Positions 1 to 27,616 of a stretch of 30,473 nt of DNA are shown in pieces. Every line of letters starts with the position of its first letter. The stretch's first letter is position 1. Under the pieces are notes generated by a model. That model saw nothing but the letters and a program-made list of their open reading frames with translations, was not told the DNA's origin and made no database searches. The translations under genes and the position numbers were made by a program. The stretch spans positions 44,171-74,643 of the IMG/VR virus record IMGVR_UViG_3300030060_006061; one strand, written 5' to 3'. The stretch comes from a virus.

Positions 1-1548
1 ATATTATCACAAACATTTAAGCAAGAAGGTGGTGTTAACTACTTCACTGGTATGAATGATCGTGGTATCGCTTTCTCTGGAAACAAAAAAATAAGCACAA
101 TCACTGGTAAGGAAGAAATATTTGATTCACCGATCAGAAGTGTAACAGGTGAAGATATTTCAAATAGAACTGATATTAATCTTATTAATGCAACAGAGGG
201 AACATTTACACAATCAATTCGTGTTGATGGTGGAGATGAGGGCAAGTCAATATCTGAATTCACTGGCCCAGTTGTGTTTACTAATAAAGTAACATCGACT
301 GCATCTCGTGGTTTTGAAGTCAATAATTTATTCATTCAAGGTGATTCTACAGTTGCAAGAAAATATACAGTTGGAATAGCAACTCCAACTGATGCAGGAA
401 CACCCGGTGATGTTGTATTTGATGAAACACCCACACAAGGCGATTATGCGGCTTGGGTTTACACGAATGACAAGGATTGGAGAAGATTTGGCCCAATCAG
501 TCTTGAAAAAGATCAAAACAAATATGTATTTGATAAAGTAGGTATTGGCACAACCACTTTAAGTGGGTCAATGTTTAGAATAGGTGCTGGTTCTACCTTA
601 TTTGCAGTTGATGCTGGTATCGTTACAGCCGTCGGTGGTCTTCGTGTTGGCACTGCAGCAACCATATATCGTAATGGAAATGCGACATTCTCAGGAATTG
701 TTACGGCAACTGCATTTGTTGGTGATGGTGCTAACCTATCCAATTTAAACGTCACAGCAGCAGGTTGGGGACAAGTTGAAGCAACGTTTGCTGGAGCTGG
801 AAGCACAGGAATCTATGCATTTGGTAGTGGTGACGTTGACAATGCAAGAGTTGGTATCGGAACATCTGTCGCTCATTTCCCACTCGATCTTGGTAAAGAT
901 GATAAAGTCGGCACTGGATTGACAAATATGATTGTCCGCAATGAATCTAAATTTATTGAGACAGTTACCGCGCATTCCGGAGTTAATATAACGGGCATAC
1001 TGAGTGCAACCAATTATAAATTAAATGGATCTGCTGGTATTATAAGTGCGGGTATTGTAACCACCTCAACTCTATTAGTTGGTGCAAGTGGAACTGCGAT
1101 TCAAGTCACATCCGGATCACTAATTGGATTTGGAACTGCATCGCCGAGATCAAAAGTAGATATTGATGGTAGATTGAGGGTTAAGTCATTACATGAAAAC
1201 GTTGAAGAACTTGACATCTCATCTGGTAATGTAAACGTTGATTTATCAAAAGGACAATCATTCAACTTAAATATTGATGAGGCAGTTACAGGATTCACTG
1301 TTATAAATCCACCGGCAGAGGCAACAGCGTTTACGATCAAGATCACTCAAGGATCTACCGCCTTCTCAGTTGGTATAGACACGTTTACAAATAATGCGAC
1401 TGGTGCAGGTGCGACAGTTTACTGGCCCGGTGGAAACGTTCCTGTTGTAACACAAGTCGCTGGAAAGACTGACATCTTCTCATTCAAGAGTTTTGATTCA
1501 TGCATCGCACTCTTTGGTATAGTGGGTGGTCAGAACTTCTCTAACTAG
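1..1548 (+). CDS. Fibre-like virion structural protein, 5' end cut by window
   Basis: The reading frame is open from base 1 and gives 515 residues to the TAG at 1546-1548. The methionine at base 52 is internal, because coding sequence (ILSQTFKQEGGVNYFTG) runs straight into it. The middle holds a fibre repeat, VGTAATIYRNGNATFSGI, followed by VGDGANLSNL, and GIGT motifs of the kind that punctuate marine T4-like tail fibres. The C-terminal ~120 residues (from VKSLHENVEEL, through YWPGGNVPVVT, to FGIVGGQNF) look like a conserved C-terminal domain of cyanophage structural proteins. The sequence is Gly/Ser/Thr/Val-rich, as in extended beta structure, with no signal peptide or membrane segment. It lies just upstream of two glycine-rich structural genes. 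The call as a fibre/structural protein rests on repeats and context; the attachment site on the virion is unknown. Confidence 0.75.
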   Translation: MLSQTFKQEGGVNYFTGMNDRGIAFSGNKKISTITGKEEIFDSPIRSVTGEDISNRTDINLINATEGTFTQSIRVDGGDEGKSISEFTGPVVFTNKVTSTASRGFEVNNLFIQGDSTVARKYTVGIATPTDAGTPGDVVFDETPTQGDYAAWVYTNDKDWRRFGPISLEKDQNKYVFDKVGIGTTTLSGSMFRIGAGSTLFAVDAGIVTAVGGLRVGTAATIYRNGNATFSGIVTATAFVGDGANLSNLNVTAAGWGQVEATFAGAGSTGIYAFGSGDVDNARVGIGTSVAHFPLDLGKDDKVGTGLTNMIVRNESKFIETVTAHSGVNITGILSATNYKLNGSAGIISAGIVTTSTLLVGASGTAIQVTSGSLIGFGTASPRSKVDIDGRLRVKSLHENVEELDISSGNVNVDLSKGQSFNLNIDEAVTGFTVINPPAEATAFTIKITQGSTAFSVGIDTFTNNATGAGATVYWPGGNVPVVTQVAGKTDIFSFKSFDSCIALFGIVGGQNFSN

Positions 1549-1552
1549 GAGG
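1547..1552 (+). promoter_or_regulatory. Shine-Dalgarno AGGAGG overlapping the previous stop codon
   Basis: AGGAGG begins within the TAG stop of the upstream gene and ends four bases before the ATG at 1557. It fixes that start and suggests translational coupling. Confidence 0.8.
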
Positions 1553-1556
1553 ACAT

Positions 1557-3470
1557 ATGAGTAATAAAATATGGGATGATAAACCCACCGATCTGACATT
1601 AAACGGCCCTAGATTATCAATAACTTCTGACACAACTCGTAATATTTCCCTAATAGCACCTAATGGTCAAACTGGTGGTGGTGTCACGGATCAAACTTCA
1701 GTTACTTTTTCAGTGACTGGAGTTTCTACTTTTCCTGATGGAACGAGTGCTGATGGTGGTATATCATATGAGTGGTTTGAAATCAACGATGGTGCGATTG
1801 GAGTATCTACTAGGTTTACAGGAGCAGGGACAAGTTCACTTACATTAACTCATGCCCTTAGTCCAGAGGATAATGGAAAACAATATTTTAGCAGATTAAC
1901 ATTTACACCAGACAATGTTTCTTCGGGAGGAACATCCGGCATATCTTTGATTCCAACTCTTGATTCTTCACCCATAGGTGTTGACATTACACCAGAATTA
2001 TTCATATCGGCAGGTATAACAACAGCGACCGTATCCGTAGATCAAGAAGCATCATTTAGTTGTTTAGGTGGCATAAATCGTGATAAAGTTTCATCATATG
2101 ATACTGGACAGGAAAGTAGTATTGCATATCAATGGTATTTTGATGGAAACACACTTTCTGATGGAACACTTAAAGTTGAAACACCTGCAACCACAGTTAC
2201 AAAAACCTTTGGTATTGGAGATCATACTTTAATCATACCTGATGATGCACTTAACGTGACAGTGCGTGTTGTTGGTGGTGCAGGTGGATCAGGTGGAAAT
2301 GACGCAGGATCAAATGGTGGAAGTGGTGGACAAGGTAGAGTTGGTAAATTCTCACTACCAAATGGTGGTAGAAAATTAACTATAAATGTTGGTGGCCGTG
2401 GTAACAATGGTGGTGGAGGAGGAAATAGATCTGGAGGTTCTGGAGGTTCATCACCAGTTAGTAGAGGTGGAAATGGTGGTAACTCTGGTGATAGAGGATC
2501 ATCAGGATCTGGTGGTGGAGGTGCAGGAGGAGTATTTGTATTTGATAGCGTAAGTAATGGTTACATTATCGCTACTGGAGGTGGCGGTGGAGCCGCAGGA
2601 GGATCTCTTAACAGAGGTAATGCACCTAATGGGGGAAATGCTGGTGATTGGCAATCTGTAAGTTCAATTTCAGGAATAACAAACGGAAGTAATGGAAATA
2701 AACCCGGCGGTGACGGCGGCGGCGGCGGCGGTGGCGGTGGAGGCTACCGTGGTGGATCTGGTGGTGCTGCTGGATCCGATGGTGGTGGTGGTGGAGGAGG
2801 CCCATGCTTTAGTGCTGATACTCGCGTGTTAATGTGGCCTGCTCCAACTGTATCTTTCGGTGATTTAGTTGAGAGACCAATATCTGAAGTAAAGGTTGGT
2901 GATTATGTAATAAACAAAGACCGTACATCAAAGAACAAAGTCACATTCATTGAGGAGCATAATCCAAGTTCAAAAGATCCAGATCTTTATTCACCAAATG
3001 AAAATATACCTCCATTTGCAACAACTAATCATCCATTATTTGTTGATGGTGAGTGGGTTGCAGTTGATGTTGACCTATATCCATGGTTAGGTAAACAAAG
3101 ACCATTAAGAGATGCCAGTATAGAGGAGACTGGAAATAGAAAACTCTATAATCTTTGGTTATCGGGTGATGGAACTTATAATGTGAATGGTTTTGGAACA
3201 CACTCCATAATGTTTGATGGTGGATTTATGAAAAATTGTTTTGCTCAAGGATTGTTAACTCATGATGAAGTGATGAGTTTAATGAGGAATTATACATATG
3301 ATCAAACTGATCTCGTGACAGGGGCATTCTTACTCAATAAATTATTAGGGAAGATAAATTTAAAAATGTTAAATAAATTTATGATTTATTGTTTGAGAGG
3401 AAATGACACATCAAAAAGAAAGAAGATTGTTCATAAGGTAATGAAATACTTACAAAGAGGTTACAACTAA
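1557..3470 (+). CDS. Ig-like / glycine-rich structural protein with C-terminal Hint domain
   Basis: 637 residues. Two Ig-like beta-sandwich segments are suggested by YEWFE (W73) and FSC....YQWYF (W193), each in a Thr/Ser-rich strand context. Residues ~236-416 are a glycine-rich domain (IIPDDALNVTVRVVGGAGG, then TINVGGRGNNGGGGG, then YIIATGGGGGAAGG) ending in a near-pure Gly run. At Cys417 a Hint fold begins: CFSADTRVLM (block A), VKVGDYV, TTNHPLFV (block B, T489xxH492) and YNLWLSGDGTYNVNG followed by H549-S550 (blocks F/G). The canonical final His-Asn is His-Ser here. After the Hint domain comes a basic ~85-residue tail (TSKRKKIVHKVMKYLQRGYN). Glycine-rich domains of this style occur in phage adhesins; Hint domains cleave or splice peptide bonds. 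Role proposed: a virion protein that may self-process next to Cys417. Confidence 0.75.
   Translation: MSNKIWDDKPTDLTLNGPRLSITSDTTRNISLIAPNGQTGGGVTDQTSVTFSVTGVSTFPDGTSADGGISYEWFEINDGAIGVSTRFTGAGTSSLTLTHALSPEDNGKQYFSRLTFTPDNVSSGGTSGISLIPTLDSSPIGVDITPELFISAGITTATVSVDQEASFSCLGGINRDKVSSYDTGQESSIAYQWYFDGNTLSDGTLKVETPATTVTKTFGIGDHTLIIPDDALNVTVRVVGGAGGSGGNDAGSNGGSGGQGRVGKFSLPNGGRKLTINVGGRGNNGGGGGNRSGGSGGSSPVSRGGNGGNSGDRGSSGSGGGGAGGVFVFDSVSNGYIIATGGGGGAAGGSLNRGNAPNGGNAGDWQSVSSISGITNGSNGNKPGGDGGGGGGGGGGYRGGSGGAAGSDGGGGGGGPCFSADTRVLMWPAPTVSFGDLVERPISEVKVGDYVINKDRTSKNKVTFIEEHNPSSKDPDLYSPNENIPPFATTNHPLFVDGEWVAVDVDLYPWLGKQRPLRDASIEETGNRKLYNLWLSGDGTYNVNGFGTHSIMFDGGFMKNCFAQGLLTHDEVMSLMRNYTYDQTDLVTGAFLLNKLLGKINLKMLNKFMIYCLRGNDTSKRKKIVHKVMKYLQRGYN
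2705..2800 (+). repeat. Poly-glycine GGC/GGT/GGA trinucleotide tract
   Basis: A run of glycine codons, including five consecutive GGC, encodes an uninterrupted Gly10 stretch followed by a second Gly7 block just before the Hint cysteine. It is locally far more GC-rich than its surroundings. Slippage here would change linker length without breaking the frame. Confidence 0.8.
2805..3212 (+). other. Hint (hedgehog/intein-type) domain within the 637-residue protein
   Basis: Residues 417-552 carry the ordered Hint signatures: nucleophile Cys417 in CFSADTRV, the VGDYV turn, T489-T490-N491-H492-P (the TxxH block B), then YNLWLSGDGTYNVNGFGTHS. Block G normally ends in His-Asn before the C-terminal junction; this one ends in His549-Ser550. 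No homing endonuclease insert is present (~75 residues separate blocks A and B). N-terminal thioester chemistry looks intact, while Asn cyclisation at the usual place does not. A Lys-Asn-Cys sequence ten residues further on (559-561) is an alternative but off-register junction. Confidence 0.72.
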
Positions 3471-4762
3471 TGTCAAATGCAGGAAGAGGTGGAGGAGGTG
3501 AGAGTGCCTATAATACTAATATAGTCACATTAACAGGTCAAAACTCTGCGAACGGAATAGATCCCACGGTCGAAGTAACTTATACGTCAGCAGAGGAAGG
3601 TGCTGGTAATGAGGTTATTATAACAAACATAACTGTTTCAGGTGCGACAACTCCAAATTTAAAATTATCAGCTGACGGACTTACAACAAATGAAATAAAG
3701 TGTAAGATAAGTCAACCTAATTCTGTGTTAAACAAAGCTGATGCAGATGGAAGCACCGTGTTATCTGCAGGAACTATTGATAGTGGATCAAATATAGGTT
3801 TAGTAACGAAAACGGTTGATTTTGAGGTCATAAGTGCCACAAACAAATCCATATCTTTTGTTAATTCGGAAATTGTCGATGATAAAGACTCAAGTGTGCA
3901 TTCATCATCCTCAACAAATTTATTTCTTAATGACATTATTTTTGAAGGTCAACAGACAGATCCTGCATCATCAGGAAGGACATTTATCATATATCCACCT
4001 GATGAAAATATAAGTGTTAAAATTTCAATGGCTGGATCCCGTGGTTTTGATTTTAATGGTAACAAAGGTGGTAATGGTGGAGTCACTATTTTTACTTATA
4101 CTCTTCAAAAAAATACAGAGTATGTTTTTAAATTAGGATATACTGTTTCTCCTCCAACATCTTTAGGTAGAGGTGGATCGGGAGCTTTCTTTTATGAAAA
4201 GGGTAGGTTATTAGTAGCATGCGGTGGTGGTGGAGCGTCTGGATGGTACGGTGGAAACGGAGGCACTGGTGGAGGTGCAGGAGTTGCTGGTGGATCGGGT
4301 AGTGGATCATCAGGTGGTTCAGGTGGTGAATCTGTTTCAGCAGGACAATTAACTTCAGAGGGTGTTGTTCCAACATCAGGTTCCGCAGGAAAAGCTGAAT
4401 CTTGCACAACTGGTGATTATTGGTTAGGGCAAGGTGTTGATGCGTGTAGTGATGTTGGAAATGTTAAATTTAGAACATTTGATGGAACAGAAGTTTCAAG
4501 TTCTGCCACAATACAAAGAGGATATAAAGCAGATGGAGGCCCAGAAAATGGATTTAGATTTAATGGAGAGAGTAGTTTTAATGAAGTAAATGGCACATAT
4601 GTTGGTGGTGGTGGAGCAGGAGCATTTGGTGGTGGAGCAGCTGCGTCAACAAACTCTGGTGGTGGAGGAGGGAGTGGATATACAAACGGAAGTGTTAATA
4701 TAATACGAACTTCTTCTGAGAATGAATTGCAAACTGCCTTCGCACAGATTGAATTACTATAA
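3470..4762 (+). CDS. Glycine-rich virion structural protein
   Basis: 430 residues; its ATG shares one base with the upstream TAA, and AGAGG at 3456-3460 is the likely ribosome site. The N-terminal ~160 residues are Thr/Ser/Val-rich beta-type sequence of unknown fold, starting MSNAGRGGGGESAYNT. From ~165 it parallels the glycine-rich domain of its upstream neighbour: IIYPPDENISVKISMAGSRG, then YVFKLGYTV, then GRLLVACGGGGASGWYGG (Cys251) and a long Gly/Ser block; a second Gly-rich patch occurs near residues 377-415 (YVGGGGAGAFGGGAAA). Stacked glycine-rich motifs recall the polyglycine adhesin tips (gp38-type) of T-even phages, but sequence alone does not prove this. Likely a virion surface protein made together with the Hint protein. 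The last codons overlap a late promoter box. Confidence 0.7.
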   Translation: MSNAGRGGGGESAYNTNIVTLTGQNSANGIDPTVEVTYTSAEEGAGNEVIITNITVSGATTPNLKLSADGLTTNEIKCKISQPNSVLNKADADGSTVLSAGTIDSGSNIGLVTKTVDFEVISATNKSISFVNSEIVDDKDSSVHSSSSTNLFLNDIIFEGQQTDPASSGRTFIIYPPDENISVKISMAGSRGFDFNGNKGGNGGVTIFTYTLQKNTEYVFKLGYTVSPPTSLGRGGSGAFFYEKGRLLVACGGGGASGWYGGNGGTGGGAGVAGGSGSGSSGGSGGESVSAGQLTSEGVVPTSGSAGKAESCTTGDYWLGQGVDACSDVGNVKFRTFDGTEVSSSATIQRGYKADGGPENGFRFNGESSFNEVNGTYVGGGGAGAFGGGAAASTNSGGGGGSGYTNGSVNIIRTSSENELQTAFAQIELL

Positions 4763-4765
4763 ATA
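4758..4765 (+). promoter_or_regulatory. T4-type late promoter box TATAAATA
   Basis: An exact match to the T4 late promoter consensus TATAAATA. It spans the TAA stop of the glycine-rich gene and lies 34 bases before the ATG at 4800. It probably drives 4800 through at least 13942, since the genes in between have gaps of about 10 bases or less. Confidence 0.65.
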
Positions 4766-4780
4766 ATTAGAGCAAAAAAT

Positions 4781-4790
4781 AGGGGGAGAG
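4781..4790 (+). promoter_or_regulatory. Shine-Dalgarno AGGGGGAGAG for the long fibre
   Basis: A purine run AGGGGGAGAG lies nine bases before the ATG at 4800. No other start lies nearby in frame with such a site. Confidence 0.6.
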
Positions 4791-4799
4791 TGAACCCGA

Positions 4800-7700
4800 A
4801 TGGCCATTAATAAGAATTTTGTAATTAAGAATGGTGTTGAGGTAAATACTAATCTTCTTGTCGGTGATTCAACTTTAAGTAAAGTCGGTATTGCGACTAC
4901 AGTTCCGGGATATACCCTTCATATTGGTGTCGGAGCAGGGGATCGTGGTGGAATTGGAGCGACTGACTTAACAGTCACTGGTGTTGCAACTATTGGAACA
5001 CAAAATAGCACATCAGGTGCTTTGAATGTAGGTGGAATATCAACTTTCAGTGGGGACATATTTGTTGGTTCTGGTGCGACTATACAAGCAAATGGTAATG
5101 CGGCCTTTGCTGGTATAGGAACTTTTGGTGGTGATTTAAATGTAGGTGGAAACTTATCTGCTGGTGATTTCACAATTGATGAGATAACAGCGAGAAATAT
5201 AAACGTAACTGGATTTGCCACATTCTCTGAGATAGGTGGTAATCTCATTCCCGATACTGATGACACTCATAGTATCGGTGCTGCCACAAGTGAATGGAAA
5301 GATTTATTCATAGATGGAACTGCAAAGATTGACACTCTTACTGTTGATGAAAGTGCTACCGTTACTGTAGATGTAACAGTCGGATCTGGAGTCACACTTC
5401 AAAGACATGGTGGAGTTTCAATTGCTGGTATCACAACAGTTGGTGGTAATCTACTTGCTGGTGGAGATATTTTACCAGATGAGGATGGATCAAGAGATCT
5501 TGGATCAAGTTCAAAAGAGTTCCAAGACTTATTCATAGATGGAACAGCAAATATTGACTCCTTATCTGCTGACACAGCAATAATTGGTGACTTGACCGAT
5601 AACAGAGTTGTCATCGTTGGTTCTGGTGGAGAACTTGAAGATAGTGGTAATTTAACGTTTGATGGTACTAAATTAGCAACAACTGCCTTTAACGTAAGCA
5701 CTGGAGCAACCATAGCCAACAACGGTAATGCAGCATTCGCTGGTATAGTCACTGCAAATGGTGGTATTCGTATTGGTACTGTAGTAACGGTTGATTCTAA
5801 CACTGGTAATGCAACCTTTGCCGGTGTCACAACAACAGGTGAGAATCTTGGTGGATTTAAGAGATTAGTTGGAGCAGCGAGTTCAACTGTTGTATCAATC
5901 GCAGTTACAGTCGCAGCCAAGACAGCAGATCACAGATACTTTGGACAAGGATCAGGAAATGGATATTGGTTAGATGGAGTTCAATCACCATTCCTTACAT
6001 TAGTTCCCGGAAAATTATATTACTTTGATCAGTCTCATAGCACAAACAGTGGTCATCCACTTCGTTTCTATCTTGAACAGGATAAGGCAAATGCATATAC
6101 AACAGAGATAACAACTGGAGGATCACCCGGTAGTTCAGGTGCATATACACAAATCGGAATCGGAACTGCATCCAATGAGAACAATCATCCAGCAGTCCTT
6201 CATTATCAGTGTTCATCTCATGCTTTGATGGGTAATGCGGTTGCAACTCAATCAAATGCAGTTAATTTGCCAGATTCAGTAGTCACAACGGTTCGTGGTA
6301 ATTTATTACCGGGCACTGATAGTTCATATGACATTGGAGCTAGTGGAACAAGATTTACTAACATCTATGGTGATACTTTACATGGTGATGGTTCAAACTT
6401 AACTAATTTACCTACTCAAGTATCGATTGCAAACAATGCAGACAACCGAGTAATCACAGGTGGTAGTGGTGTCAACTTAAATGGTGAAGCAAACCTCACA
6501 TTTGATGGATCAACACTTGGAATCACTGGAAGTATTGATCTAAGTGCAGATATTGATGTTGATGGAACTGCAAACCTTGATACTGTAGATGTTGACGGAA
6601 CCGCAAACTTTGCTGATGATGTAACCCTTGTTGCTGCTGGTAGTAGCACAATATTATTTGATGCATCTGCATTCGATTTAACATTTCAAGATAATATTAG
6701 AGCAAAGTTCGGAACAGGAAAAGATTTAGCCATATATCATGATGGCAGCAATTCTTTCATCGATGATACTGGAACTGGGGATTTAAATATTTCTGGTAGT
6801 ATCGTAAGATTGCAGGATAGTAATCGACTTACTTTGGCGAGAGGTGTAGAGAGTGGTGCGTTTGAGCTCTATCATAATAATTTAAATAGACTTGAGACCA
6901 CAGCTGACGGAGTTGAAGTTGGTGTTTCATCCATTCACGTAAATGGAAACGCTGCATTCCCCGGAATCACTACATTAGGAAAACCCGGTGCTGGAAGTGA
7001 GGTTATAATAAACAACAGATTGACCGTCAATAGTGGTGCAAATATATCTGGTATTGCGACACTAGCGCAAGCGTATATTGCTAAACTAGCACAGAGTAAC
7101 GGAACATCTGGTAGTGTTAATGAAGTTCCAGTTGCAAACGGTTCAGGTGGTTGGAACTGGGCACCTGTAAACACCGCCGGTGCGAGTGACATTCAGGGTA
7201 TTACTGTTCAGGAAGAAGGTTCAAACGTTGGTACTGCAGGTAGTATTAACACGATAAACTTCACTGGCACCGACATCACTGCGTCTGCATCAGGACAAAC
7301 TGCAACGATAAACGTCAGTTCAACAATTCAGGGTATAAGCACAGCAAATCAGTCATATTTACATGACATCACTCAAACTGGTGTTACAACAATCACATCA
7401 GATCAAGAAGCAGCTATAAATGTTGGAACTTCAGCAACAATATACAAACTTGGTAACATCAGGACTGTTGGTGTTATTACTGCTCGTGGTGGACTTGTTA
7501 TCAGTGATTCTACAGATAGAAGTTCTAATGGTGGATTAATAGTTGGAACTGCTGGAACGATACAATCAAATGGTGCAGCTGCATTTGCTGGAATCGTAAC
7601 TGCTGGTGGTGGTTTCAATATTGGTATTCAATCTGCTGGTATTGTTATTGCGAAGAACGTTGGTATCAATACACTTAACTTTGTTGGATCTGGTAACTCA

Positions 7701-8094: not shown

Positions 8095-9462
8095 ATGGCA
8101 ACCTTTCGCGTTGGTGTAGGATCTTTTAACATACAAGATGGAGCTGTCGGTTTTGGTACTGATATAGATGGTCTTGGAAATTTAAGAGTTAAAGGTGTAA
8201 CAAAAACAACGGGTTCGATAGTATCTGGTGCATCAACACTCACCAGATATTCTGGTTTTGCTGCGGATAATATTAATCAACTTGAAAATATTACACTTAC
8301 ATCAGAAGTTGGGACGATTGGAGATATTGTAGTTGGTGTTGGCACATCAGTCATTATATCAAGTGCATCAACAGTCACAGTTGGAACAGTTGAAAGTGTG
8401 AGTATCGGAACTCATTTCTCTCCTCCAACAGGTGGTATTGAAGAAAGGGGAGATAATTTTATTGAGGGTATGATGAGATTCAACACGGATCTCAATACGA
8501 TGGAGTTCTATAATGGCGATGAGTGGAGACAATTCACTTATCTTGCAGATATTCAAAATAGCCCGGGAAGTCGTGGTCGCGGTTTATTTGGTGGTGGACA
8601 ACCAGGCCCAAGTAGAAAAAAAATAGACTCAGTAGAAATAATGAGTCAAGGTAATGGAGTTGATTTTGGTGATCTTATTGCGGGTCACTCAAATAAAGGT
8701 GCTTACTCTAGTAATATAAGGGGTATATTTATTGGTGGAGCAACTACTGATAATATGGATTACGTAACCATCGCATCACGAGGAGATGGAATTGATTTTG
8801 GAAATTTAACATTAGCAAGAGGATATTCACCCGGCACTTCATCCTCAACAAGAGGTTTATGTCTTGGTGGATGGGCAGGATCAAACCCACCATCAAATAT
8901 AATTGATTATGTGGAGATAGTAACTCTTGGAGACGCACTTGATTTCGGTGATTTATTTACTGGAAGATATTCTCATAGTTGTTTCTCCTCTCCAACTCGT
9001 GCTTTTGCTTACACTGGATCTAATAATAACAATGGAACCATTGAAGGATCTATTGAAATGGTGACAATAGCAGCAAAGGGTAATGGAACAGATTTTGGTG
9101 AACCTGTCATAGCAAGTAACTATCATCAAAACGGATGTTCATCCTCTATTAGAGGTCTCTTGGCAGGTGGTGCAAATCCAGCATATACCACTAGCATACA
9201 ATCTATTACAATGGCATCATCAGGTTCTGCGGAGATTGGTGGTGATTTAACAGTAAGAAGACAGAGGCCTGGTGCATCATCAACTGAAACTCGAGCTATA
9301 TTTTATGGTGGAAGATCAGATGGAGGTGCAACACTTAGCACTATTGATTTTGTTTCAATAGCGTCATTAGGTAATGCACAAGATTTTGGCGATATAAATG
9401 ATAAAGATAATTACACTAAAGCTGGTTTATCAGATTCCCACGGTGGATTAGGAGGTTACTGA
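8095..9462 (+). CDS. Stem plus six-repeat propeller protein 1
   Basis: 455 residues; AGGTGA at 8083-8088 is the ribosome site. Residues 1-~105 are a fibre-like stem (GFGTDIDGLGNLRVKG, then LTRYSGF and a series of Thr/Ser/Val strands). Residues ~107-150 are the SPPTGG....MMRFNTDLNTMEFYNGDEW module shared with most paralogues here. From residue ~160 there are six ~48-residue repeats of the form RGlFgGG-loop-IDyVtIas-GNgvDFGdL-loop-SSsT. Repeat 5 is degenerate (SAEIGGDL replaces the NAxDFGDL core). The chain closes with LSDSHGGLGGY. Its closest relatives in the window are the next two genes. The repeat is kelch-like in pattern but lacks kelch hallmarks, so a beta-propeller fold is inference. First gene of the propeller series. 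Confidence 0.78.
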   Translation: MATFRVGVGSFNIQDGAVGFGTDIDGLGNLRVKGVTKTTGSIVSGASTLTRYSGFAADNINQLENITLTSEVGTIGDIVVGVGTSVIISSASTVTVGTVESVSIGTHFSPPTGGIEERGDNFIEGMMRFNTDLNTMEFYNGDEWRQFTYLADIQNSPGSRGRGLFGGGQPGPSRKKIDSVEIMSQGNGVDFGDLIAGHSNKGAYSSNIRGIFIGGATTDNMDYVTIASRGDGIDFGNLTLARGYSPGTSSSTRGLCLGGWAGSNPPSNIIDYVEIVTLGDALDFGDLFTGRYSHSCFSSPTRAFAYTGSNNNNGTIEGSIEMVTIAAKGNGTDFGEPVIASNYHQNGCSSSIRGLLAGGANPAYTTSIQSITMASSGSAEIGGDLTVRRQRPGASSTETRAIFYGGRSDGGATLSTIDFVSIASLGNAQDFGDINDKDNYTKAGLSDSHGGLGGY

Positions 9463-10832
9463 TGGCTGAAATACGTTTTAATTACGGCGATAAATTTACA
9501 CAAACATCAGATTCAAACACTGGTATTGGATCAACAAATCCTGCTGCAAAATTAGACATAGCAGGTGGAACAAGTGCAGGAAGTCTCCGAGTCTCAGGTA
9601 TTGCAACTCTTTCTTCATATCAGGGATTTGTAAATACTAAATTATCAACAACAGAGAATTTAATTGTTGAAGCAGGTCAAAGTGGATCTGTTTCTGGAGA
9701 GGTCGTTGTCAGCACAGGACAAACAATATCAGTATCAACAGGTGCGACCACAGGACAAGGTGGGATTCAGAGTCTGAAGGTAAGTCAAACATTCATGCCA
9801 CCTGTTGGAGGAACTGCTGATCGACCAACTGATGTCAAACCCGGAATGGTTTACTATAATAAAGACTTCAAGACAATTGAGTTCTGGGATGGTAATTTCT
9901 GGAAGCAGGTAGATAATACAATAAGATCTAGTCGTGCTGTATTTACAGGTGGTGCTTATTCTTCTTATGGGGATTTTATTGATTTTGTAAATATTTCAAC
10001 TCTTGGAAATGCACAAGAATTTGGAAGAACTATTACTTCTGCTAGATTTTTTGCTGCATGCTCCTCTGGAACTCGTGGTGTTTATGCTGTTGGATATAAA
10101 TCTCCGGGAGCTAGTGCAAATGAAATTGAATATATTACAATTGCCTCAGAGGGAAACGCGATTGATTTTGGTGATAGCACTGTATCAGGGTATGCTCAAT
10201 CATCTTTAAGTAGTTCAACTCGTGGTATTTGGGGAGGAAGACAAAGCCCCTCTGGATATTCAAATGTAATTGATTATGTAGAAATAGCAAGTATTGGTAA
10301 TGCGGTTGATTTTGGTGATACAACCACACCATTGGATGGTGCTGCTGGAGTTGCATCACCGACTAGAGGAGTCATATGTGGTGGAAGAAATCCAGATTCT
10401 GGATCAACTGGTGTAAGTAATAATCAATTTATCACGATAGCATCCAAAGGTAATGCAAATGATGATGGTGATTTAACTCACAGAAGAAAAGATCTAGGTG
10501 GATTGTCAAACTCCACGAGAGGAATTCTTAGTGGTGGTAGAGATGGTTCTGCTGGAATACAGTTTTCTGATATCGACTTCATTACAATTGCGTCTTTAGG
10601 AAATGCACAAGATTTTGGTAATCTTACTTTTTCCGGTGCATATCTAGCATCAGCATCAAATCAAATTCGTGGTGTTACAGCTGGTGGAAACAGTGCGCCA
10701 AATTATTGGAATATAATTAATTTTGTAACAATTGCAACTACAGGAAACGCACAAGATTTTGGCGATTTAACTGTTGGAAGATACGCACTTGGTGCTTTAT
10801 CAGATTCCCATGGCGGACTAGGAGGTTTCTAA
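9462..10832 (+). CDS. Stem plus six-repeat propeller protein 2
   Basis: 456 residues; TGATG overlap with the previous gene, whose last codons supply GGAGGT (9451-9456). The N-terminal stem has the fibre signature GIGSTNPAAKLDIAGG, then LSSYQGF and strands SGEVVVSTGQTISVSTGA, followed by the FMPPVGGTADRP....MVYYNKDFKTIEFWDGNFW module at ~120-150, where the usual RFNTD has drifted to YYNKD. Six repeats run from Arg158 to the end (first RAVFTGGAYSSYG, last RGVTAGGNSAPNYW). Repeat 4 carries NANDDGDL instead of DFGDL. It ends LSDSHGGLGGF. The stem is colinear with those of the genes on either side, so these three form one subfamily. Confidence 0.78.
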   Translation: MAEIRFNYGDKFTQTSDSNTGIGSTNPAAKLDIAGGTSAGSLRVSGIATLSSYQGFVNTKLSTTENLIVEAGQSGSVSGEVVVSTGQTISVSTGATTGQGGIQSLKVSQTFMPPVGGTADRPTDVKPGMVYYNKDFKTIEFWDGNFWKQVDNTIRSSRAVFTGGAYSSYGDFIDFVNISTLGNAQEFGRTITSARFFAACSSGTRGVYAVGYKSPGASANEIEYITIASEGNAIDFGDSTVSGYAQSSLSSSTRGIWGGRQSPSGYSNVIDYVEIASIGNAVDFGDTTTPLDGAAGVASPTRGVICGGRNPDSGSTGVSNNQFITIASKGNANDDGDLTHRRKDLGGLSNSTRGILSGGRDGSAGIQFSDIDFITIASLGNAQDFGNLTFSGAYLASASNQIRGVTAGGNSAPNYWNIINFVTIATTGNAQDFGDLTVGRYALGALSDSHGGLGGF

Positions 10833-10833
10833 G

Positions 10834-12249
10834 ATGGCAACAATACGTAGAGCTGGTTTTGGCACTGTATTTGAACTCGAAAACGATGTTGTCGGGATCG
10901 GAACTGATAATCCAACTCATAAGTTACAAGCACTCGGTAATATTCGATCAGAGGCAGCAACTGATATTGGTATCTCTTCTCTTACAACTTATCAAGGATT
11001 TACAGATAAGGAAGCAAGATTTACAACTGGACAGATTGATAATCAATCACAGTCAGGATCAACATCAGGTGAGATTGTAATTGATGGTGATGTCACAGTT
11101 TCATCTGCAACGACATTCACAAGTGGCCCACAGAATCTAACAGTCACTGATACATTTACTCTTCCATCAGGAGACACTAATAGTCGTGCATTGAAACCAA
11201 CTGCAGGAAGTTTGAGATTCAATCAAGATTTTGCAACACTTGAATTTTACACAGGTAATAACTGGGCAACGGTAAATACATTTACTGAAATGCAAAACAG
11301 CCCCGGAAATCGTGGTCGTGGTATAACTGCTGGATCATATCCCGGTGAAGTAGAACATATCGAATTTATAAACATTGCAACAAAGGGAAATTCACTTGAT
11401 TTTGGTGAAATGACAGAGCATCAAGGATTAATGGATGCAGCATCATCATCAACAAGAATGGTTATTTCGGGAGGATATAATTCTGGATTTGGAGGTGGTG
11501 CAGTTACGGATATACAGTATGTTACAATGGCATCGGAAGGAAATACAATAGATTTTGGTGATCAGACTCAAGTAACCTATGGAACGGGAGCGAGTTCAAG
11601 TTCAACTCGTGCTTTGATTATGGGTGGAAATAGAACTCCTGATGTTTCGCCATTTGATGATGGAAATGATGGTAACAATACGATTTGCACCATCGAAATG
11701 GCAACGATAGGAAATGCAATTGATTTTGGTGATTTAAGTGCACGAAGAGCATATCCAAGTGCTTGTGGAGATCCTGTTCGTATGGTATTATTTGGTGGAT
11801 ATAGTAATGATGTTGGATCACCTCTTGGTTTGAGGAGTTCAGATACTGTAATCTATGCTTCTCATGGAAATGGGGTTGATTTTGGTGAGGCATCACATGG
11901 TGGATCTAATAAAGCAGGATCAAACTCGACAAGAGGTATTTGGGCTGGAACAAGTGGGGGAAGTAATACTTATACTAACATCATATATACAGTTTCTATT
12001 CAAACTTTAGGTAATTCAACTGATTTTGGTGATAGAACTTATGGTTATGTTGGTTCTGCTATGTCATCACAAACTCGCATGGTGATGTCTGGTGGAAAAA
12101 ATGCTGCATCCCCATATGCAACAACTAATATAATGGATTTTATTGAGATTGCATCATCTGGAAATGCACAAGATTTTGGCGATATTGGTTTTGATCAAGC
12201 TGATGCTGCTGGAACATCAGACTCTCACGGTGGACTAGGAGGTTTCTAA
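10834..12249 (+). CDS. Stem plus six-repeat propeller protein 3
   Basis: 471 residues, one base after the previous stop, with GGAGGT at 10821-10826. The stem shows VGIGTDNPTHKLQALGNI, a motif common in fibres and endosialidase-type tail proteins, then LTTYQGF, SGEIVIDGDVTVSSA and FTLPSGDTNSR....SLRFNQDFATLEFYTGNNW. Six repeats follow from ~Arg162 (RGITAGSYPGEVEHIEF first; RMVMSGGKNAASPY last). Repeat 3 has a long Asp/Asn-rich loop (PFDDGNDGNNTI), the sort of insertion that could tune a binding face. It ends TSDSHGGLGGF. Function beyond a likely virion fibre or adhesin cannot be read from the sequence. Confidence 0.78.
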   Translation: MATIRRAGFGTVFELENDVVGIGTDNPTHKLQALGNIRSEAATDIGISSLTTYQGFTDKEARFTTGQIDNQSQSGSTSGEIVIDGDVTVSSATTFTSGPQNLTVTDTFTLPSGDTNSRALKPTAGSLRFNQDFATLEFYTGNNWATVNTFTEMQNSPGNRGRGITAGSYPGEVEHIEFINIATKGNSLDFGEMTEHQGLMDAASSSTRMVISGGYNSGFGGGAVTDIQYVTMASEGNTIDFGDQTQVTYGTGASSSSTRALIMGGNRTPDVSPFDDGNDGNNTICTIEMATIGNAIDFGDLSARRAYPSACGDPVRMVLFGGYSNDVGSPLGLRSSDTVIYASHGNGVDFGEASHGGSNKAGSNSTRGIWAGTSGGSNTYTNIIYTVSIQTLGNSTDFGDRTYGYVGSAMSSQTRMVMSGGKNAASPYATTNIMDFIEIASSGNAQDFGDIGFDQADAAGTSDSHGGLGGF

Positions 12250-12250
12250 C

Positions 12251-13942
12251 ATGGCAAATTTAAGAACGAACAATTTATCAGGAGAGCAAGGACAGAATGC
12301 CTATCGTGGGTCTGTTTTTTTCAATGACGATGGTGGTGGAAATGGGAGTGATAGTCTCACGGTTCCAGCTGGGTCAGATTTTGCATATGGCACGGGTGAT
12401 TTTACATTTGAAGCGTATGTATGGATATCGAGATATAGTGGTGGCACGAGGCTTATTTTTTCACAGACTGTAAGCGGAACTAATTATATTCTTTTTGGTG
12501 TCACCTCATCTGGTCAGGTGACAACGATTCTTGGACATTCAAACCAAGTTACGTCAACAGAGACTATCGCTGAAAATTCTTGGAATCATGTCGCAGTTAG
12601 CAGAGCATCAGGCACTGTGAAGGTATTTGTTAATGGTGATGCATCTTCTGGATCATCGATCACCACAGATTTAAATGATACAACAAGAATTCCAACAATC
12701 GGAAAATATACACACTCAACTCAACTTCAATGGAAGGGATACATTTCAAATTTCAGAATAACAAAAGGAGAGGCACTTTATACAGTAAGTTTCATTCCAC
12801 CAACAACTGAACTGACAGCAGATGCAAATACAGTTTTATTATGTTGTCAAAATTCTGATGATGTAACACAAGAGGCAACAGGAAAAACAATCACTGCAAG
12901 CGGAAATCTTGCAACTGTAGGTTACAATAAAACACAACCAAAAGTTATTCCACCATACGGAGTGGATGCAGGAAACGCATTCGGAGGGCCAATCCAACAA
13001 AACACTCAAGGATATATGTATTTCCAATCAGGAAGAACAGAGGAAAGAGGTGGAACTCGTGCTTTAATGATTGGAGGTTTCTCACCGGGTGGTTCTGATA
13101 CCATTAATTTTGTAAATGTTGCGACGGAGGGGACAGCTTTAGATTTTGGAAATTTGAGTAGAGCTGCTGGTTACTGTGGTGCAATGGGAGGTCGCACTAG
13201 AGGTGTCATACCTCTTCAATATCAAATGACTCCCTCTGAAGCCACAACCAATATTATTGAATTTTTAACAATTTTAACTGAGGGGAATACACAAGATTTT
13301 GGTGATATGGCAACTAGCACTTATGGTAGAGCATCCGCATCTAATGATGTTAGAGGAATCATATCAGGAGGAGAAGCAACGGAAGATGCCATGGAATTTA
13401 TTACATTAGCATCACTAGGAAATGGTAGCAGTTTTGGTGATTTAACTCAGGGAAGAAGAGAGCCTCAATCAACTGCTGATCCAACTCGCATGGTAACTGC
13501 TGGTGGTTATGCATCTCCTAGCACCGGCACTAGGTATAATATTATTGATTTTGTGACCATTGCGACAACTGGAAATGCACAAGATTTTGGTGACTTGACA
13601 GTAACACGTTGGAAACCCGCTGCTTGTGCTGATGCCACAAGGGGTGTATTTGCAGGTGGAGGTACACCATCTAATTTAAATGTAATTGATTTTATTACAA
13701 TTCAATCAACAGGAGATGCAACTGATTTTGGTGATTTGGTATTAACCAGTAGTCGTGGATCTGCAGGATCTGATTCTATAAGGGGTGTTATTTTCACTGG
13801 TTTTTCAGATACTGGATCACATACTGCCAACATTGATAGCATAATTATTCAAACCACGGGAAGTGCAAAAAGATTTGGTGAGACGACAACAGATACTCAT
13901 AGTACAGGTGGACTATCAAATGGTCATGGTGGTCTTTCATAA
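12251..13942 (+). CDS. LamG-like lectin domain plus six-repeat propeller protein 1
   Basis: 563 residues; ribosome site GGAGGT at 12238-12243. Residues ~15-205 form a LamG/concanavalin A-like domain: GSVFFNDDG, DFAYGTGDFTFEAYVWI, then NSWNHVAVSRASGTVKVFVNG (the typical W-x-H-V-A-x-x-R strand pair), WKGYISNFRITKGEALYT and VLLCCQNSDDV. Such domains bind glycans or proteins. After a short link (QGYMYFQSGRTEERG) six repeats start at Arg270. Repeat 2 is atypical (RGVIPLQYQMTPSEATTN replaces the GG turn). The C-terminus is LSNGHGGLS. Unlike the three genes before it, it lacks the RFNTD module, which instead opens the next gene. The terminal glycine codons are GGTGGT, not a ribosome site, and a late promoter box overlaps the stop. 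Confidence 0.78.
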   Translation: MANLRTNNLSGEQGQNAYRGSVFFNDDGGGNGSDSLTVPAGSDFAYGTGDFTFEAYVWISRYSGGTRLIFSQTVSGTNYILFGVTSSGQVTTILGHSNQVTSTETIAENSWNHVAVSRASGTVKVFVNGDASSGSSITTDLNDTTRIPTIGKYTHSTQLQWKGYISNFRITKGEALYTVSFIPPTTELTADANTVLLCCQNSDDVTQEATGKTITASGNLATVGYNKTQPKVIPPYGVDAGNAFGGPIQQNTQGYMYFQSGRTEERGGTRALMIGGFSPGGSDTINFVNVATEGTALDFGNLSRAAGYCGAMGGRTRGVIPLQYQMTPSEATTNIIEFLTILTEGNTQDFGDMATSTYGRASASNDVRGIISGGEATEDAMEFITLASLGNGSSFGDLTQGRREPQSTADPTRMVTAGGYASPSTGTRYNIIDFVTIATTGNAQDFGDLTVTRWKPAACADATRGVFAGGGTPSNLNVIDFITIQSTGDATDFGDLVLTSSRGSAGSDSIRGVIFTGFSDTGSHTANIDSIIIQTTGSAKRFGETTTDTHSTGGLSNGHGGLS

Positions 13943-13945
13943 ATA
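13938..13945 (+). promoter_or_regulatory. Late promoter box CATAAATA
   Basis: CATAAATA overlaps the TAA of the LamG-propeller gene, 20 bases before the ATG at 13965, which has its own AGGA ribosome site at 13951-13954. It fits the NATAAATA form reported for T4-like cyanophage late promoters. The same arrangement recurs after the second LamG gene. Confidence 0.55.
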
Positions 13946-13964
13946 TGAATAGGATAGTAGAACC

Positions 13965-14990
13965 ATGAGTTTTTCACCAAAAACTGTACCACTAGGAGCG
14001 ATAAGATTCAACTCTGACTCACAGAAGTTAGAGTATTGGAATGGTAATATTTGGATGCAAATTCATACTTTCTCTCCAAATCTTGATGGTGGTACTAGAG
14101 GTATTTTTACTGGTATGGGTGCGATACCTAATATGAGCCCATATGGAATTCAATTTATAACAATTCCAACTCAAGGAAATGCAACAGATTTTGGTGATAT
14201 GGTTGATGCGAGATCAAACGTAGGGTCTTTTGCATCAAATGTTCGTGGAGTGTTTGGTGGTGGTTACAGCCCCACTCCAGATAATGATATTGATTTTGTT
14301 ACCATACCATCAACAGGAAATGCAGTGGATTTTGGTGATATGAATTACAATGCATTTGATACGGTTGGAGCATCAAATCAAACTCGTGGGTTATTTTTAG
14401 GAGGATCACCAAATAGTAGTGAGAATGGTGGTGTTAATAGTGTAGATTATGTAACAATTACGACAACAGGAAATGCAAAAGATTTTGGAGATTTATTTTT
14501 AAAATGTATGACTGCGGGAGCTGGTGCAAATCCAGTAAGGGCAGTGGTTGCGAATGGAAAAGATGGCCCAGCACATTCAAATGTTATTTTTAGAGTTAAC
14601 ATAGCAACACTAGGTAATTCATCAGACTTTGGGGATCAGTCTACAAGCAGACAAACCATGGGTGCATGTTCAAATTCGGTTAGAATGGTATTTGGGGGTG
14701 GAGGCACTCCTACAAAAATATCTAGTATTGAAACTCTTTTGTTAGCGACTGAGGGTAACTCAGTATTATTTGGCGATCTTGGGGCTGCTAAATCTAGTCT
14801 TGGTGCTTGTTGTGATGCGACTCGTGCTGTATTTGGTGCTGGTATATTCCACCCTGAAACTCATACAAATAATTTGGAATATATTAACATCGCCACTGGT
14901 GGTGATACAGTTGATTTTGGTGATTTATTGGATAATAGTAAAACATCAGGTGGCACTGGATTCTCAAATGGTCACGGAGGTCTCGGATAA
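13965..14990 (+). CDS. Short RFNTD-type six-repeat propeller protein 1
   Basis: 341 residues. The N-terminus is only ~44 residues: MSFSPKTVPLGAIRFNSDSQ followed by KLEYWNGNIW, a module seen in many phage fibre proteins between stem and head. Six repeats run from Arg45 (RGIFTGMGAIPNMSPYG) to the end, GFSNGHGGLG. Repeat 3 has an Asn-rich loop (GGSPNSSENGGVNS) and repeat 4 reads RAVVANGKDGPAHS. It follows the LamG gene across a promoter gap, and its final glycine codons (GGAGGT, 14976-14981) act as ribosome site for the next gene, whose ATG overlaps its stop. It may be the partner subunit of the preceding LamG protein, since that protein lacks this module; this is inference. Confidence 0.76.
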   Translation: MSFSPKTVPLGAIRFNSDSQKLEYWNGNIWMQIHTFSPNLDGGTRGIFTGMGAIPNMSPYGIQFITIPTQGNATDFGDMVDARSNVGSFASNVRGVFGGGYSPTPDNDIDFVTIPSTGNAVDFGDMNYNAFDTVGASNQTRGLFLGGSPNSSENGGVNSVDYVTITTTGNAKDFGDLFLKCMTAGAGANPVRAVVANGKDGPAHSNVIFRVNIATLGNSSDFGDQSTSRQTMGACSNSVRMVFGGGGTPTKISSIETLLLATEGNSVLFGDLGAAKSSLGACCDATRAVFGAGIFHPETHTNNLEYINIATGGDTVDFGDLLDNSKTSGGTGFSNGHGGLG

Positions 14991-16723
14991 TGGGAATATT
15001 AAGAACTGATCGAGTATCTGGTTTAGGTGGTGCAAATGCCATCAAGGGATCTGTATTTTTTGGTAATTGTCTGAGTGCCGGAAGTGTCCTTGGATTTAAT
15101 TATTTAAGAACTGAGAGTAGTGATAATTTTACATTCGGCACAGGAGACATAACGATTGAGGGTTGGTTTTTCTTCCCAAGATTATCAAGTAGCACTGGTT
15201 ATCAAACTTTAGTTGGTGATACAATATACTCCAACACTGGTGGATTTACTTTTTATGTTCAGAACGGACAACTTAATTTTTGGAAAGGCACTAACGCAAG
15301 TAGTGTTGTTTCTGGTGGAACAATTGTGCAAAATGAGTGGACTCATCTTGCTTATACAAGAGAAAGTGGATCTAATAAAATTTTTGTTAATGGATCTTTA
15401 GTTGGAACAGCGAGTGATTCGACAGATTATACAGATACTACACTAACAATTGGAACTAACAAAGTAACCCAACAATCAGGCACTGATGCTGGTCTATATT
15501 CTTTTTCCGGATTTGCTTCTAATTTGAGGATTTTAAAAGGAAGAGCACTATACACCGCAGCATTTACCCCACCGGTTGGAGAACTTCAAGTTATTGATAA
15601 TACAGTTTTATTATGTTGTCAATCACCCGGAAATGTTTTACAAGAAGCCACTGGTGTTGTCTTAACCGCACCAAGGATTAACAATAGTGCTGGAGTTCAA
15701 GCATCACACTTCACACCAAACTCACCCGTTGGTTTCTCTACAACCACTGATGTTGGAACACAGTTTGGAACAACCTTTAATGGTGTGACAACCTTTGACT
15801 CACAAGCATATATGGTTCCACCCGGTGGAAATACAAGAGAAAGAAACCGAGGTCGTGGTGTTCTTAGTGGTGGAAGAAGTAACCATGCCATGCAATTCAT
15901 TAACATTCAATCTCAAGGAAATTCACAAATTTTTGGTGACAGCGTAACTGACGATGGAATAGAGGGATTTGCAGTTGGATCTTCAACAAGAGGTTTGTTT
16001 TCGGGTGGTTATCCTAGCGTAGGAAATGTAATTGAATTCATAACCTTTGCAACTACATCGAATGGTACAGATTTTGGTGACATGACCACAGGTAGAAGAA
16101 GTGGTGCGGGAGCAGGAAATGAAACAAGAGGTTTATTTGCTGGAGGATTAAATTCAAGTGGTACCTCATTAAATACCATAGAATTTTCGACCATCGCAAC
16201 ATTAGGAAATTCAACTGATTTTGGTGATATGACACAGGCGAGAGATCAACTTGCCGGAGTTTCAGATACAACAAGAGCTGTTTTTGCTGGTGGAGTTGAA
16301 CAAGGTGGTAGTCAACATAATATTATGGACTTCGTTACAATCGCAACAACAGGAAACGCACAAGATTTTGGTGATATGACCGGAGTAAACACTGGTAGTG
16401 CCGGATCATCAGATTCAACAAGGGGTGTAATAACGGTTGGATATACAGCCCCGAATATGCTTGACCGAATTGATTTTATAACAATACAGTCAGCAGGTAA
16501 TGCAACTGATTTTGGTGATTTAACATTGGCAAGATATTTAAGTGCAAGTATGTCAAATTCAATCCGTGCAGTTATTGCTGGAGGTGGATCACCCTCTTCT
16601 CAAAATACAATTGATTTTGTGACGATAAAAACAACAGGAAATGCAAATGATTTTGGTGATCTTATCGGAGGTGCTAATTTTGTTGTTGTTGGAACATCAG
16701 ACAGTCATGGTGGTCTTTCATAA
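14990..16723 (+). CDS. LamG-like lectin domain plus six-repeat propeller protein 2
   Basis: 577 residues; TAATG overlap with the gene before. The LamG-like domain (~15-210) is colinear with that of 12251-13942: GSVFFGNC, NFTFGTGDITIEGWFFF, NEWTHLAYTRESGSNKIFVNG, FSGFASNLRILKGRALYT and VLLCCQSPGNVLQEATG. A linker GVTTFDSQAYMVPPGGNTRE leads to six repeats from ~Arg289 (RGVLSGGRSNHAMQF). Repeat 1 has QIFGD instead of DFGD. It ends TSDSHGGLS with GGTGGT codons, then a late promoter box. The two LamG proteins clearly differ in loops around the conserved strands, so they may bind different ligands. Confidence 0.78.
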   Translation: MGILRTDRVSGLGGANAIKGSVFFGNCLSAGSVLGFNYLRTESSDNFTFGTGDITIEGWFFFPRLSSSTGYQTLVGDTIYSNTGGFTFYVQNGQLNFWKGTNASSVVSGGTIVQNEWTHLAYTRESGSNKIFVNGSLVGTASDSTDYTDTTLTIGTNKVTQQSGTDAGLYSFSGFASNLRILKGRALYTAAFTPPVGELQVIDNTVLLCCQSPGNVLQEATGVVLTAPRINNSAGVQASHFTPNSPVGFSTTTDVGTQFGTTFNGVTTFDSQAYMVPPGGNTRERNRGRGVLSGGRSNHAMQFINIQSQGNSQIFGDSVTDDGIEGFAVGSSTRGLFSGGYPSVGNVIEFITFATTSNGTDFGDMTTGRRSGAGAGNETRGLFAGGLNSSGTSLNTIEFSTIATLGNSTDFGDMTQARDQLAGVSDTTRAVFAGGVEQGGSQHNIMDFVTIATTGNAQDFGDMTGVNTGSAGSSDSTRGVITVGYTAPNMLDRIDFITIQSAGNATDFGDLTLARYLSASMSNSIRAVIAGGGSPSSQNTIDFVTIKTTGNANDFGDLIGGANFVVVGTSDSHGGLS

Positions 16724-16726
16724 ATA
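16719..16726 (+). promoter_or_regulatory. Late promoter box CATAAATA
   Basis: CATAAATA overlaps the TAA of the second LamG-propeller gene, 19 bases before the ATG at 16745. An AGGAG ribosome site at 16731-16735 sits between box and start. The sequence GGTCTTTCATAAATATG is shared with the site at 13938, which suggests that the gene end and promoter were duplicated together. Confidence 0.55.
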
Positions 16727-16744
16727 TGTTAGGAGTATAATTAT

Positions 16745-17755
16745 ATGTCAAATCAACCACCGATAGAAGTACCACAAGGTGCAATCAGACTGAATACAGA
16801 TTCTCAAAAGTTAGAGTTCTTTGCACAGGATCGGTGGTATGAGATGGCGACTGATACACAGGTGCTTGATGGTGGAGTTGGTCGTGGTATAGCAGCTGGT
16901 GGAAATACTCCAGGCCAAACAAACGTTATAGAATTTATCACAATACCAACAGCAGGTAATTCAACTGATTTTGGAGATTTAACCGCACCAAGACAAGCAG
17001 TTCCGGGTGCAACTGGTAGTTCAACTCGTGGTATAATTGGTGGTGGTCAAGAGTTTCCAGCATCAGTTAATAAAATTGATTTTATAACATTCTCATCAAC
17101 AAGTAATGCACAAGACTTTGGTGATTTAACAGTTGCAAGACGACAACCAGCAACTACTGGTAATCAAACTCGTGGAGTTTTTAGTGGTGGTGAAGCACCA
17201 AATGCTGTAAATACGATAGATTTTGTAACAATCGCAGCAACTGGAAATGCAGTTGATTATGGTGATTTAACTGTTGCGAGAAGAATAGCTGGAGCTGCAG
17301 CCTCACCAACTCGTGCATTGATTATGGGTGGATATGCTGCTCCTGCGAGTCTCAATTCAATTGAGTTTCTTACAATTTCAACAACTGGAAATTCACAAGA
17401 CTTTGGAGATTTAACTGTTGCTAGGTATAATAATGGAGGAACTTCGAGTAGCACTCGTGCAGTTATGATGGGTGGTTATGCAACATCACCGGGTGCAGCA
17501 GTTAAGACTATTGATTTTGTTACCATTGCAACGATAGGAAATGCAATGAACTTTGGAGATCTTACAGAGACAATTTATCATTCACAAACCGTATCAAATT
17601 CAATTCGTGCTGTTAGAATGGGTGGCGTTACTCCTTTGGATGATTCAATGGATTATATACAAATAGCAACTGAGGGAAATGCAGTTTTCTTTGGTGATTT
17701 ACTCTCAACTCATAAAGAGGGTGCAGGTTGTTCAAATGCACATGGAGGTTTATAA
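16745..17755 (+). CDS. Short RFNTD-type six-repeat propeller protein 2
   Basis: 336 residues. The N-terminal ~45 residues are MSNQPPIEVPQGAIRLNTDS then QKLEFFAQDRW, the RFNTD module with Leu for Phe. Six unusually regular repeats follow from Arg47; several carry the consensus DFGDLTVARR almost unchanged. The repeat-3 core is DYGDL, and repeat 6 reads FFGDL. It ends GCSNAHGGL, whose GGAGGT (17744-17749) serves the next gene through a TAATG overlap. These repeats are the closest to the family average in the window, so this gene is a good guide to the consensus. Confidence 0.76.
   Translation: MSNQPPIEVPQGAIRLNTDSQKLEFFAQDRWYEMATDTQVLDGGVGRGIAAGGNTPGQTNVIEFITIPTAGNSTDFGDLTAPRQAVPGATGSSTRGIIGGGQEFPASVNKIDFITFSSTSNAQDFGDLTVARRQPATTGNQTRGVFSGGEAPNAVNTIDFVTIAATGNAVDYGDLTVARRIAGAAASPTRALIMGGYAAPASLNSIEFLTISTTGNSQDFGDLTVARYNNGGTSSSTRAVMMGGYATSPGAAVKTIDFVTIATIGNAMNFGDLTETIYHSQTVSNSIRAVRMGGVTPLDDSMDYIQIATEGNAVFFGDLLSTHKEGAGCSNAHGGL
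17744..17749 (+). promoter_or_regulatory. Shine-Dalgarno GGAGGT inside coding sequence, fixes start at 17755
   Basis: GGAGGT is encoded by the Gly-Gly of the upstream HGGL terminus and lies five bases before the ATG at 17755. An in-frame ATG at 17728 has no such site and would only translate the upstream gene's conserved end in another frame, so 17755 is preferred. Confidence 0.85.
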
Positions 17756-26617: not shown

Positions 26618-26622
26618 TTAAT

Positions 26623-27615: not shown

Positions 27616-27616
27616 T

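Follow-up and report, generated by a model that had tools for sequence, protein, structure and literature searches.

The last 221 residues of a 637-residue structural protein of an uncultured marine virus, probably a cyanophage, start from Cys417 and comprise a Hint domain and a tail; residues 417–637 are best explained as a C-terminal module that processes itself and belongs to a new subfamily of Hint domains. The subfamily has a fixed acid, no terminal Asn and a helical domain of its own, and it is carried by virion proteins. The module probably detaches or chemically tags the protein on which it sits. Databases already label some domains of uncultured phages as Hint, and phage terminases that contain inteins have been published (PMC3556154 and PMC5259590). 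No Hint domain that bears a conserved helical tail and belongs to phage virion proteins was found in searches of open papers or in passages of PMC2362128, PMC9163320, PMC7906309, PMC5259590, PMC3556154 and PMC7664689.

Architecture and predicted fold of the module

The window, i.e. the whole stretch of 30,473 nucleotides that was analysed, corresponds to positions 44171–74643 of a 74,643-base virus record. The open reading frame (ORF) at 1557..3470 (this ORF, its parts and the neighboring ORF are on the plus strand) has an AGGAGG sequence 5′ of its ATG and encodes 637 amino acids, arranged as an N-terminal virion part, a glycine-rich region, a Hint domain and a helical tail. The N-terminal partner, or N-extein (residues 1–416; 1557..2804), in which the glycine-rich stretch begins at approximately residue 221, is related to phrog_24848 (5e-17) and also matches phrog_29022 (4e-29), and its score against Pfam Gly_rich_2 (22.1 bits) is below the cut-off of 24.3. 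Named-phage relatives of this part come from three records of Synechococcus phages and from a single-cell marine virus. Two reaction-centre genes of the psbA/psbD family (PF00124) lie side by side in the window's record, so the host of the virus is likely cyanobacterial. The neighboring ORF (3470..4762, 430 amino acids) is related to the second half of phrog_24848, and in Synechococcus phage S-SM2 both halves form one protein without a Hint domain; Hint was also absent from the stretches around the related N-parts in S-SM2 and SynMITS9220M01. Because phrog_24848 spans both ORFs, a Hint inserted into a single gene was considered at first. A split or inserted intein was rejected because the relatives show a C-terminal module that is swapped between partners, and a C-terminal intein half was not found at the start of ORF 3470 when the ORF translations were read.

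The first-pass annotation had placed a Hint domain at the end of a glycine-rich protein, and this assignment was borne out by the profile of the relatives and by the predicted fold. The domain spans residues 417–553 (Cys417 to about Phe553; 2805..3215). Taken singly, the window domain has no Hint match in Pfam, single-domain scans against Pfam, NCBIfam and PHROG gave no usable match, and NCBIfam intein_Nterm scored 14.3 bits (E-value of 0.06; cut-off of 24.5). Within the scope of the Hint families in the VIA table, Pfam PF01079 was not found in the window's record. The comparison of this region with Hint families, which had been suggested along with the original assignment, succeeded with a 50-row profile of the family (A3), which matches the BIL2 Hint structure at 3.7e-5. 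Several relatives match one of the Pfam families Hint, Hom_end_hint and Vint (E-values of 6e-5 to 2.4e-6), with scores that stay below the Pfam cut-offs. An AlphaFold2 model based on the 50 rows (pLDDT of 93.9, pTM of 0.89) comprises eleven strands, followed by five helices from model residue 140. Foldseek searches of solved structures with this model gave nine matches with E ≤ 1e-3, which include Vint, inteins and one bacterial intein-like domain, with BIL2 as the best (2.4e-6). A second structure aligner gave Z-scores of 14.5 for BIL2, 12.8 for the gp41-1 intein, 12.0 for hedgehog (1at0; 111 residues, 2.3 Å, model residues 1–135 on 258–401) and 11.9 for Vint (147 residues, reaching model residue 175). 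In terms of the whole fold, BIL2 and inteins are nearest, and hedgehog and Vint are tied behind them. The predicted Hint fold, combined with an N-terminal Cys and the block B TxxH motif, places the domain in the Hint superfamily; on the basis of this model, its identity is secure once the relatives are included, whereas the single sequence is nearly invisible.

The tail (residues 554–637; 3216..3467) had been described as a basic extension of ~85 residues. It is indeed basic (14 K/R versus 6 D/E in the window) and is 84 residues long, but it is more than that. When predicted alone (residues 138–221 of the module), it forms five helices with a pLDDT of 92.7, Gly173 is kept in 75/75 rows, and the net charge is positive in 71 of 74 tails. 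Hint sequences share a median pairwise identity of 0.46 and the tails one of 0.25, and dN/dS between the window and its nearest relative is 0.10 for Hint, 0.21 for the tail and 0.26 for the N-part. As modelled, the tail is a conserved five-helix domain under purifying selection, and it is proposed to recognize an acceptor or ligand. At most a few of the 72 members match any given Pfam or PHROG family. Foldseek returned two matches for the tail (best E-value of 6.6), a short list that is not evidence of a new fold, and in the second structure aligner none of nine chains reached a Z-score of 2. Trp is absent from the tail sequence of the window. All rows long enough to include the tail retain it. 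In two rows (L060 and L068) the contig stops short of the full tail, one row lacks the start (L092), and L069 no longer follows the profile beyond position 179.

Predicted catalytic residues and comparison with known Hint proteins

The residues on which the first-pass annotation relied, namely Cys417, T489xxH492, the block F-like YNLWLSGDGTYNVNG and His549-Ser550, are all present at the places given there. In module numbering, Cys417 is Cys1, Glu466 is Glu50 and Ser550 is Ser134. Cys417 (2805..2807), the predicted nucleophile of an N–S acyl shift, is found in 75/75 rows, and the Thr and His of block B (Thr489-Thr-Asn-His492; 3021..3032) in 76/76 rows, so the conservation of Cys417 and His492, the loss of which had been named as evidence against the assignment, holds throughout the family. 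The block F-like stretch occupies residues 531–545 (3147..3191) and is followed by Thr548-His549-Ser550 (3198..3206), with Thr548 kept in 76/76 rows. An acid, Glu466 (2952..2954), is present in 76/76 rows. Because the patterns used for searching include His492 and other parts of block B, portions of block F and the residues that lead to Thr132, the conservation counts there are partly selected; none of the patterns in the viral-contig profile scans contains Cys1, Glu50, Ser134 or Gly173 of the tail, and those of the bacterial genome-contig scan reach Ser134.

At position 134, where inteins have their terminal Asn, the 76 rows contain Ser (70), Thr (4), Cys (1) and Asp (1), and never Asn. In these rows, the absence of the Asn is therefore the rule of the Hint–tail family and not an oddity of the window protein. 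Of the His-Ser junction described originally, the Ser is nearly fixed, but the His is not: the preceding position is Thr in 45 rows, His in 20 and another residue in 11, although His is found in 10/10 members of the window's glycine-rich class. The residue after Ser550 is Ile551 in the window and Ile in 67/76 rows, with Leu, Gly, Met or Val in the remainder. The window protein thus has neither the terminal Asn (or Gln) of an intein, nor a C-extein that starts with Cys, Ser or Thr, nor the His-Asn end of the corresponding type of bacterial intein-like domain. Position −1 of the scissile bond, which is Pro416 in the window (2802..2804), is Gly in 42/75 rows and Pro in only two, the window and its closest relative (L015). 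A Pro at this position slows the N–S acyl shift and cleavage, so fast cleavage of the window protein is disfavored.

The likeness to hedgehog proteins proposed by the first-pass annotation was upheld, and it is strengthened by the invariant acid at the general-base position and by the dedicated C-terminal domain after Hint. With the fly hedgehog Hint as the query (identical to 1at0 over 145 residues), all six MAFFT runs and the hhalign runs placed Glu50 on Asp303 of hedgehog. Ser134 fell on Cys400 in hhalign and in five of the six MAFFT runs, with block B misplaced in three of the six MAFFT runs (two of three with the terminal-only set and one of three with the mixed set). The first hhalign comparison aligned only the first 31 columns. 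The A3 profile matched 1at0 with an E-value of 0.22, and hhalign pair probabilities were 90.9 to 92.2 in local modes; BIL2 scores better. In hedgehog, Asp303 acts as the general base in both steps, an SCYA motif contains Cys400, and the Hint domain is followed by a sterol recognition region (SRR) with an HWY motif (PMC9163320); Hog is defined as Hint plus an SRR or ARR (PMC2362128). Like Hog, the phage module pairs a C-terminal Hint domain with a helical tail that runs to the end of the protein, and it has Cys1, TxxH, Gly as the commonest residue at −1, an acid that aligns to Asp303 and, in place of a terminal Asn, a residue that aligns to Cys400. It differs in that the acid is Glu and not Asp, the partners are phage virion proteins, and the five-helix tail has no HWY motif and no detected relation to the SRR; an adduct is known for hedgehog only.

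Vint (PF14623; 8r2c) also has Glu at the position of Glu50 in an alignment of Tetrahymena Vint, so hedgehog is not alone in having an acid there, and it shares a similar HP..V.GEW stretch after block B and a fold overlap that reaches the start of the tail. Vint domains sit in eukaryotic VWA proteins (PMC2362128), whereas no VWA domain was found upstream of the module among the carriers scanned with Pfam. The window is unmatched by PF14623; the best relative with a single Hint (L025) scores 23.3 bits against a cut-off of 27, and two others (L012 and L013) exceed it only when their tandem Hints are included. Bacterial intein-like domains and ciliate BIL2 (6tmm, 6y75 and 2lwy) give the best fold and profile matches, but BIL2 has a terminal Asn (an entry title names N143A), which never occurs in the phage family, it has no acid at position 50, and the five-helix tail lies outside the aligned part.

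Carriers of the module and upstream Hint domains

Searches of viral contigs (mostly IMG/VR) in successive rounds yielded 3, 11 and 54 loci, and then the best 80 of 84. Scanning bacterial genomes contributed two metagenome-assembled contigs with the module. Together with the window, these 80 best viral loci and two bacterial contigs make up 83 places, 76 of them distinct in sequence. The module is present in all of them, at or near the end of an open frame. When five seeds were compared with the 83 carriers, the partner resembled a DUF4815/phrog_358 protein in 39 cases, the window type in 12 (L074 matches both of these types), a baseplate hub protein in seven (phrog_694, phrog_430 and phrog_1922 in L025), the small protein of L043 in seven and the L041 type in two; no seed matched in 17. 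By these matches, the module sits on at least five unrelated N-terminal partner types, which indicates that it has moved between virion proteins. One copy per record was found in 20/20 records, which were chosen from the carriers, are mostly the longer ones and may be fragments. Long poly-Pro and poly-Arg linkers precede the Cys in several loci (L017/L003, L018, L019, L021 and L024). In L004 (SynMITS9220M01_028), poly-Pro and then poly-Arg lead to an unrelated end. Two genes after the poly-Pro Hint gene of L003, ORF 6329–6904 reads like a 2-oxoglutarate-dependent prolyl hydroxylase; the 2OG-oxygenase family PF13640 was not found in the window's own record. Some other carriers (L043, L044, L079, L039 and L077) have a hydrophobic, membrane-like helix directly before the Cys.

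Among 50,697 isolate phage records, tblastn gave two matches for the window (E-value limit of 1), none for L056 and L044 (1e-3 for both) and one for L025 (1e-2). The L025 match is one of the two window matches, a Vibrio phage gene that is labelled P-loop NTPase, which we read as an ordinary intein; the other, in Vibrio phage 367.14, has 16% coverage and an E-value of 0.4. A His-Asn Hint query found 21 isolate records, mostly labelled helicase, terminase or hypothetical protein, and in the two of these that were inspected the family-profile matches stop before the tail.

Seven of the 83 proteins (L034, L063–L065, L078, L085 and L090) contain one to six extra Hint domains in tandem just upstream of the module. 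These share Cys1 with it and are found in the same carriers, but they end in His-Asn-Lys, are variable at position 50 and have no tail. All 18 distinct upstream domains end in His-Asn, and only four of the 18 have an acid at position 50, so only the last domain combines a missing Asn with a fixed Glu and a tail. The arrays contain up to six Hints (L090 at 1150–6663, L034 at 1–6663, L078 and L063–L065), often with the next Cys directly after His-Asn-Lys. They may cut themselves into pieces, since the usual C-extein nucleophile is absent after the Asn. In the last Hint of L090, the first ~25 residues resemble the upstream His-Asn Hints and the junction is Thr-Tyr-Asp; from its sequence, this domain looks gene-converted.

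Proposed mechanism, alternatives and surrounding genes

In the proposed mechanism, Cys417 would form a thioester with residue 416 by an N–S acyl shift, aided by the Thr-x-x-His motif. Because the Asn is absent (0/76 rows), splicing, which had been thought the less favored outcome from the window alone, could not follow, and neither could C-terminal cleavage. An acceptor, activated by Glu466 and held in position by the five-helix tail, would then attack the thioester, and the virion protein would be released from the module with a C-terminus that either bears the acceptor or is merely new; the acceptor recognized by the tail may be water. This mode of action would resemble that of Hint and the sterol recognition region in hedgehog proteins. 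We infer all of its chemistry, including the role of the tail and the acceptor, and we give such a hedgehog-like release or transfer of the virion protein by the Hint–tail module an even chance of being correct. A more specific version, put forward tentatively and as rather doubtful, is a hedgehog-like transferase of the phages themselves, in which the tail would bind a lipid or small molecule that belongs to the host or the virion, Glu466 would activate it, and Hint would attach it to the C-terminus of one virion protein per phage (a fibre, spike or DUF4815 protein).

Plain self-cleavage in the manner of Vint or BIL, with hydrolysis of the thioester and trimming of the virion protein at residue 416, is possible, although we consider it somewhat unlikely. 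In this case the tail could act as a lid or timing switch, or as a chaperone of assembly, and depart together with Hint, a role to which we assign the same limited probability. BIL2 being the closest fold, the extension of the Vint alignment into the tail and the Glu at the same place in Vint all agree with trimming, and the loss of Asn also fits cleavage at the N-terminal junction only. A five-helix domain with an invariant Gly and an invariant acid, on the other hand, exceed the needs of hydrolysis. A Vint structure study reportedly describes cleavage that is regulated by a ligand.

Pro416 could block the acyl shift and leave the window protein with an inactive cap or docking domain. This would be in line with the restriction of Pro at −1 to the window and L015 and with the Hint-free relatives of the N-part in S-SM2 and SynMITS9220M01, which also imply that processing is dispensable for the fibre; we regard it as unlikely, as Cys417, Thr489, His492 and Glu466 are all retained in this protein and Hint is its most constrained part in the dN/dS comparison given above. 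Transfer of the acyl group to Ser550, or to an amine or the N-terminus of a neighboring virion protein such as the product of ORF 3470–4762, would create a branched or joined protein. Such crosslinking could explain why position 134 is Ser, Thr or Cys in 75/76 rows, and both flanking ORFs are one protein in S-SM2. It is nevertheless highly improbable: the other partner types do not have that neighbor as far as seen, the N-terminal residues of the neighbor vary between relatives, and hedgehog keeps a Cys at the aligned place though its acceptor is cholesterol (PMC9163320).

If the module detaches or tags its partner as proposed, some phage structural proteins would differ chemically in the virion from what their genes predict, and if the transferase reading is true, viral particles would receive a covalent lipid or glycan tag without any other enzyme. 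To our knowledge, only eukaryotes are known to attach a molecule to a protein end in the hedgehog manner; if virion proteins carry a tail-bearing Hint of this kind, phages would have the hedgehog design as well. High-resolution work on the hedgehog tail is missing according to PMC9163320, and the phage module would serve as a short model for Hint domains that are joined to an acceptor domain, as well as a possible tool for tagging protein ends.

Elsewhere in the window, 16 ORFs that are alike and carry repeats of 'GNAxDFGDLT'-like motifs form a long row at positions 8095–19820 and 23125–30473; on reading their sequences, they resemble beta-propeller or fibre proteins. Within this fibre gene row lie ORFs 20789–21511 and 22330–23124, which we take, from their motifs, to be glycosyltransferase-like and sulfotransferase-like, respectively.
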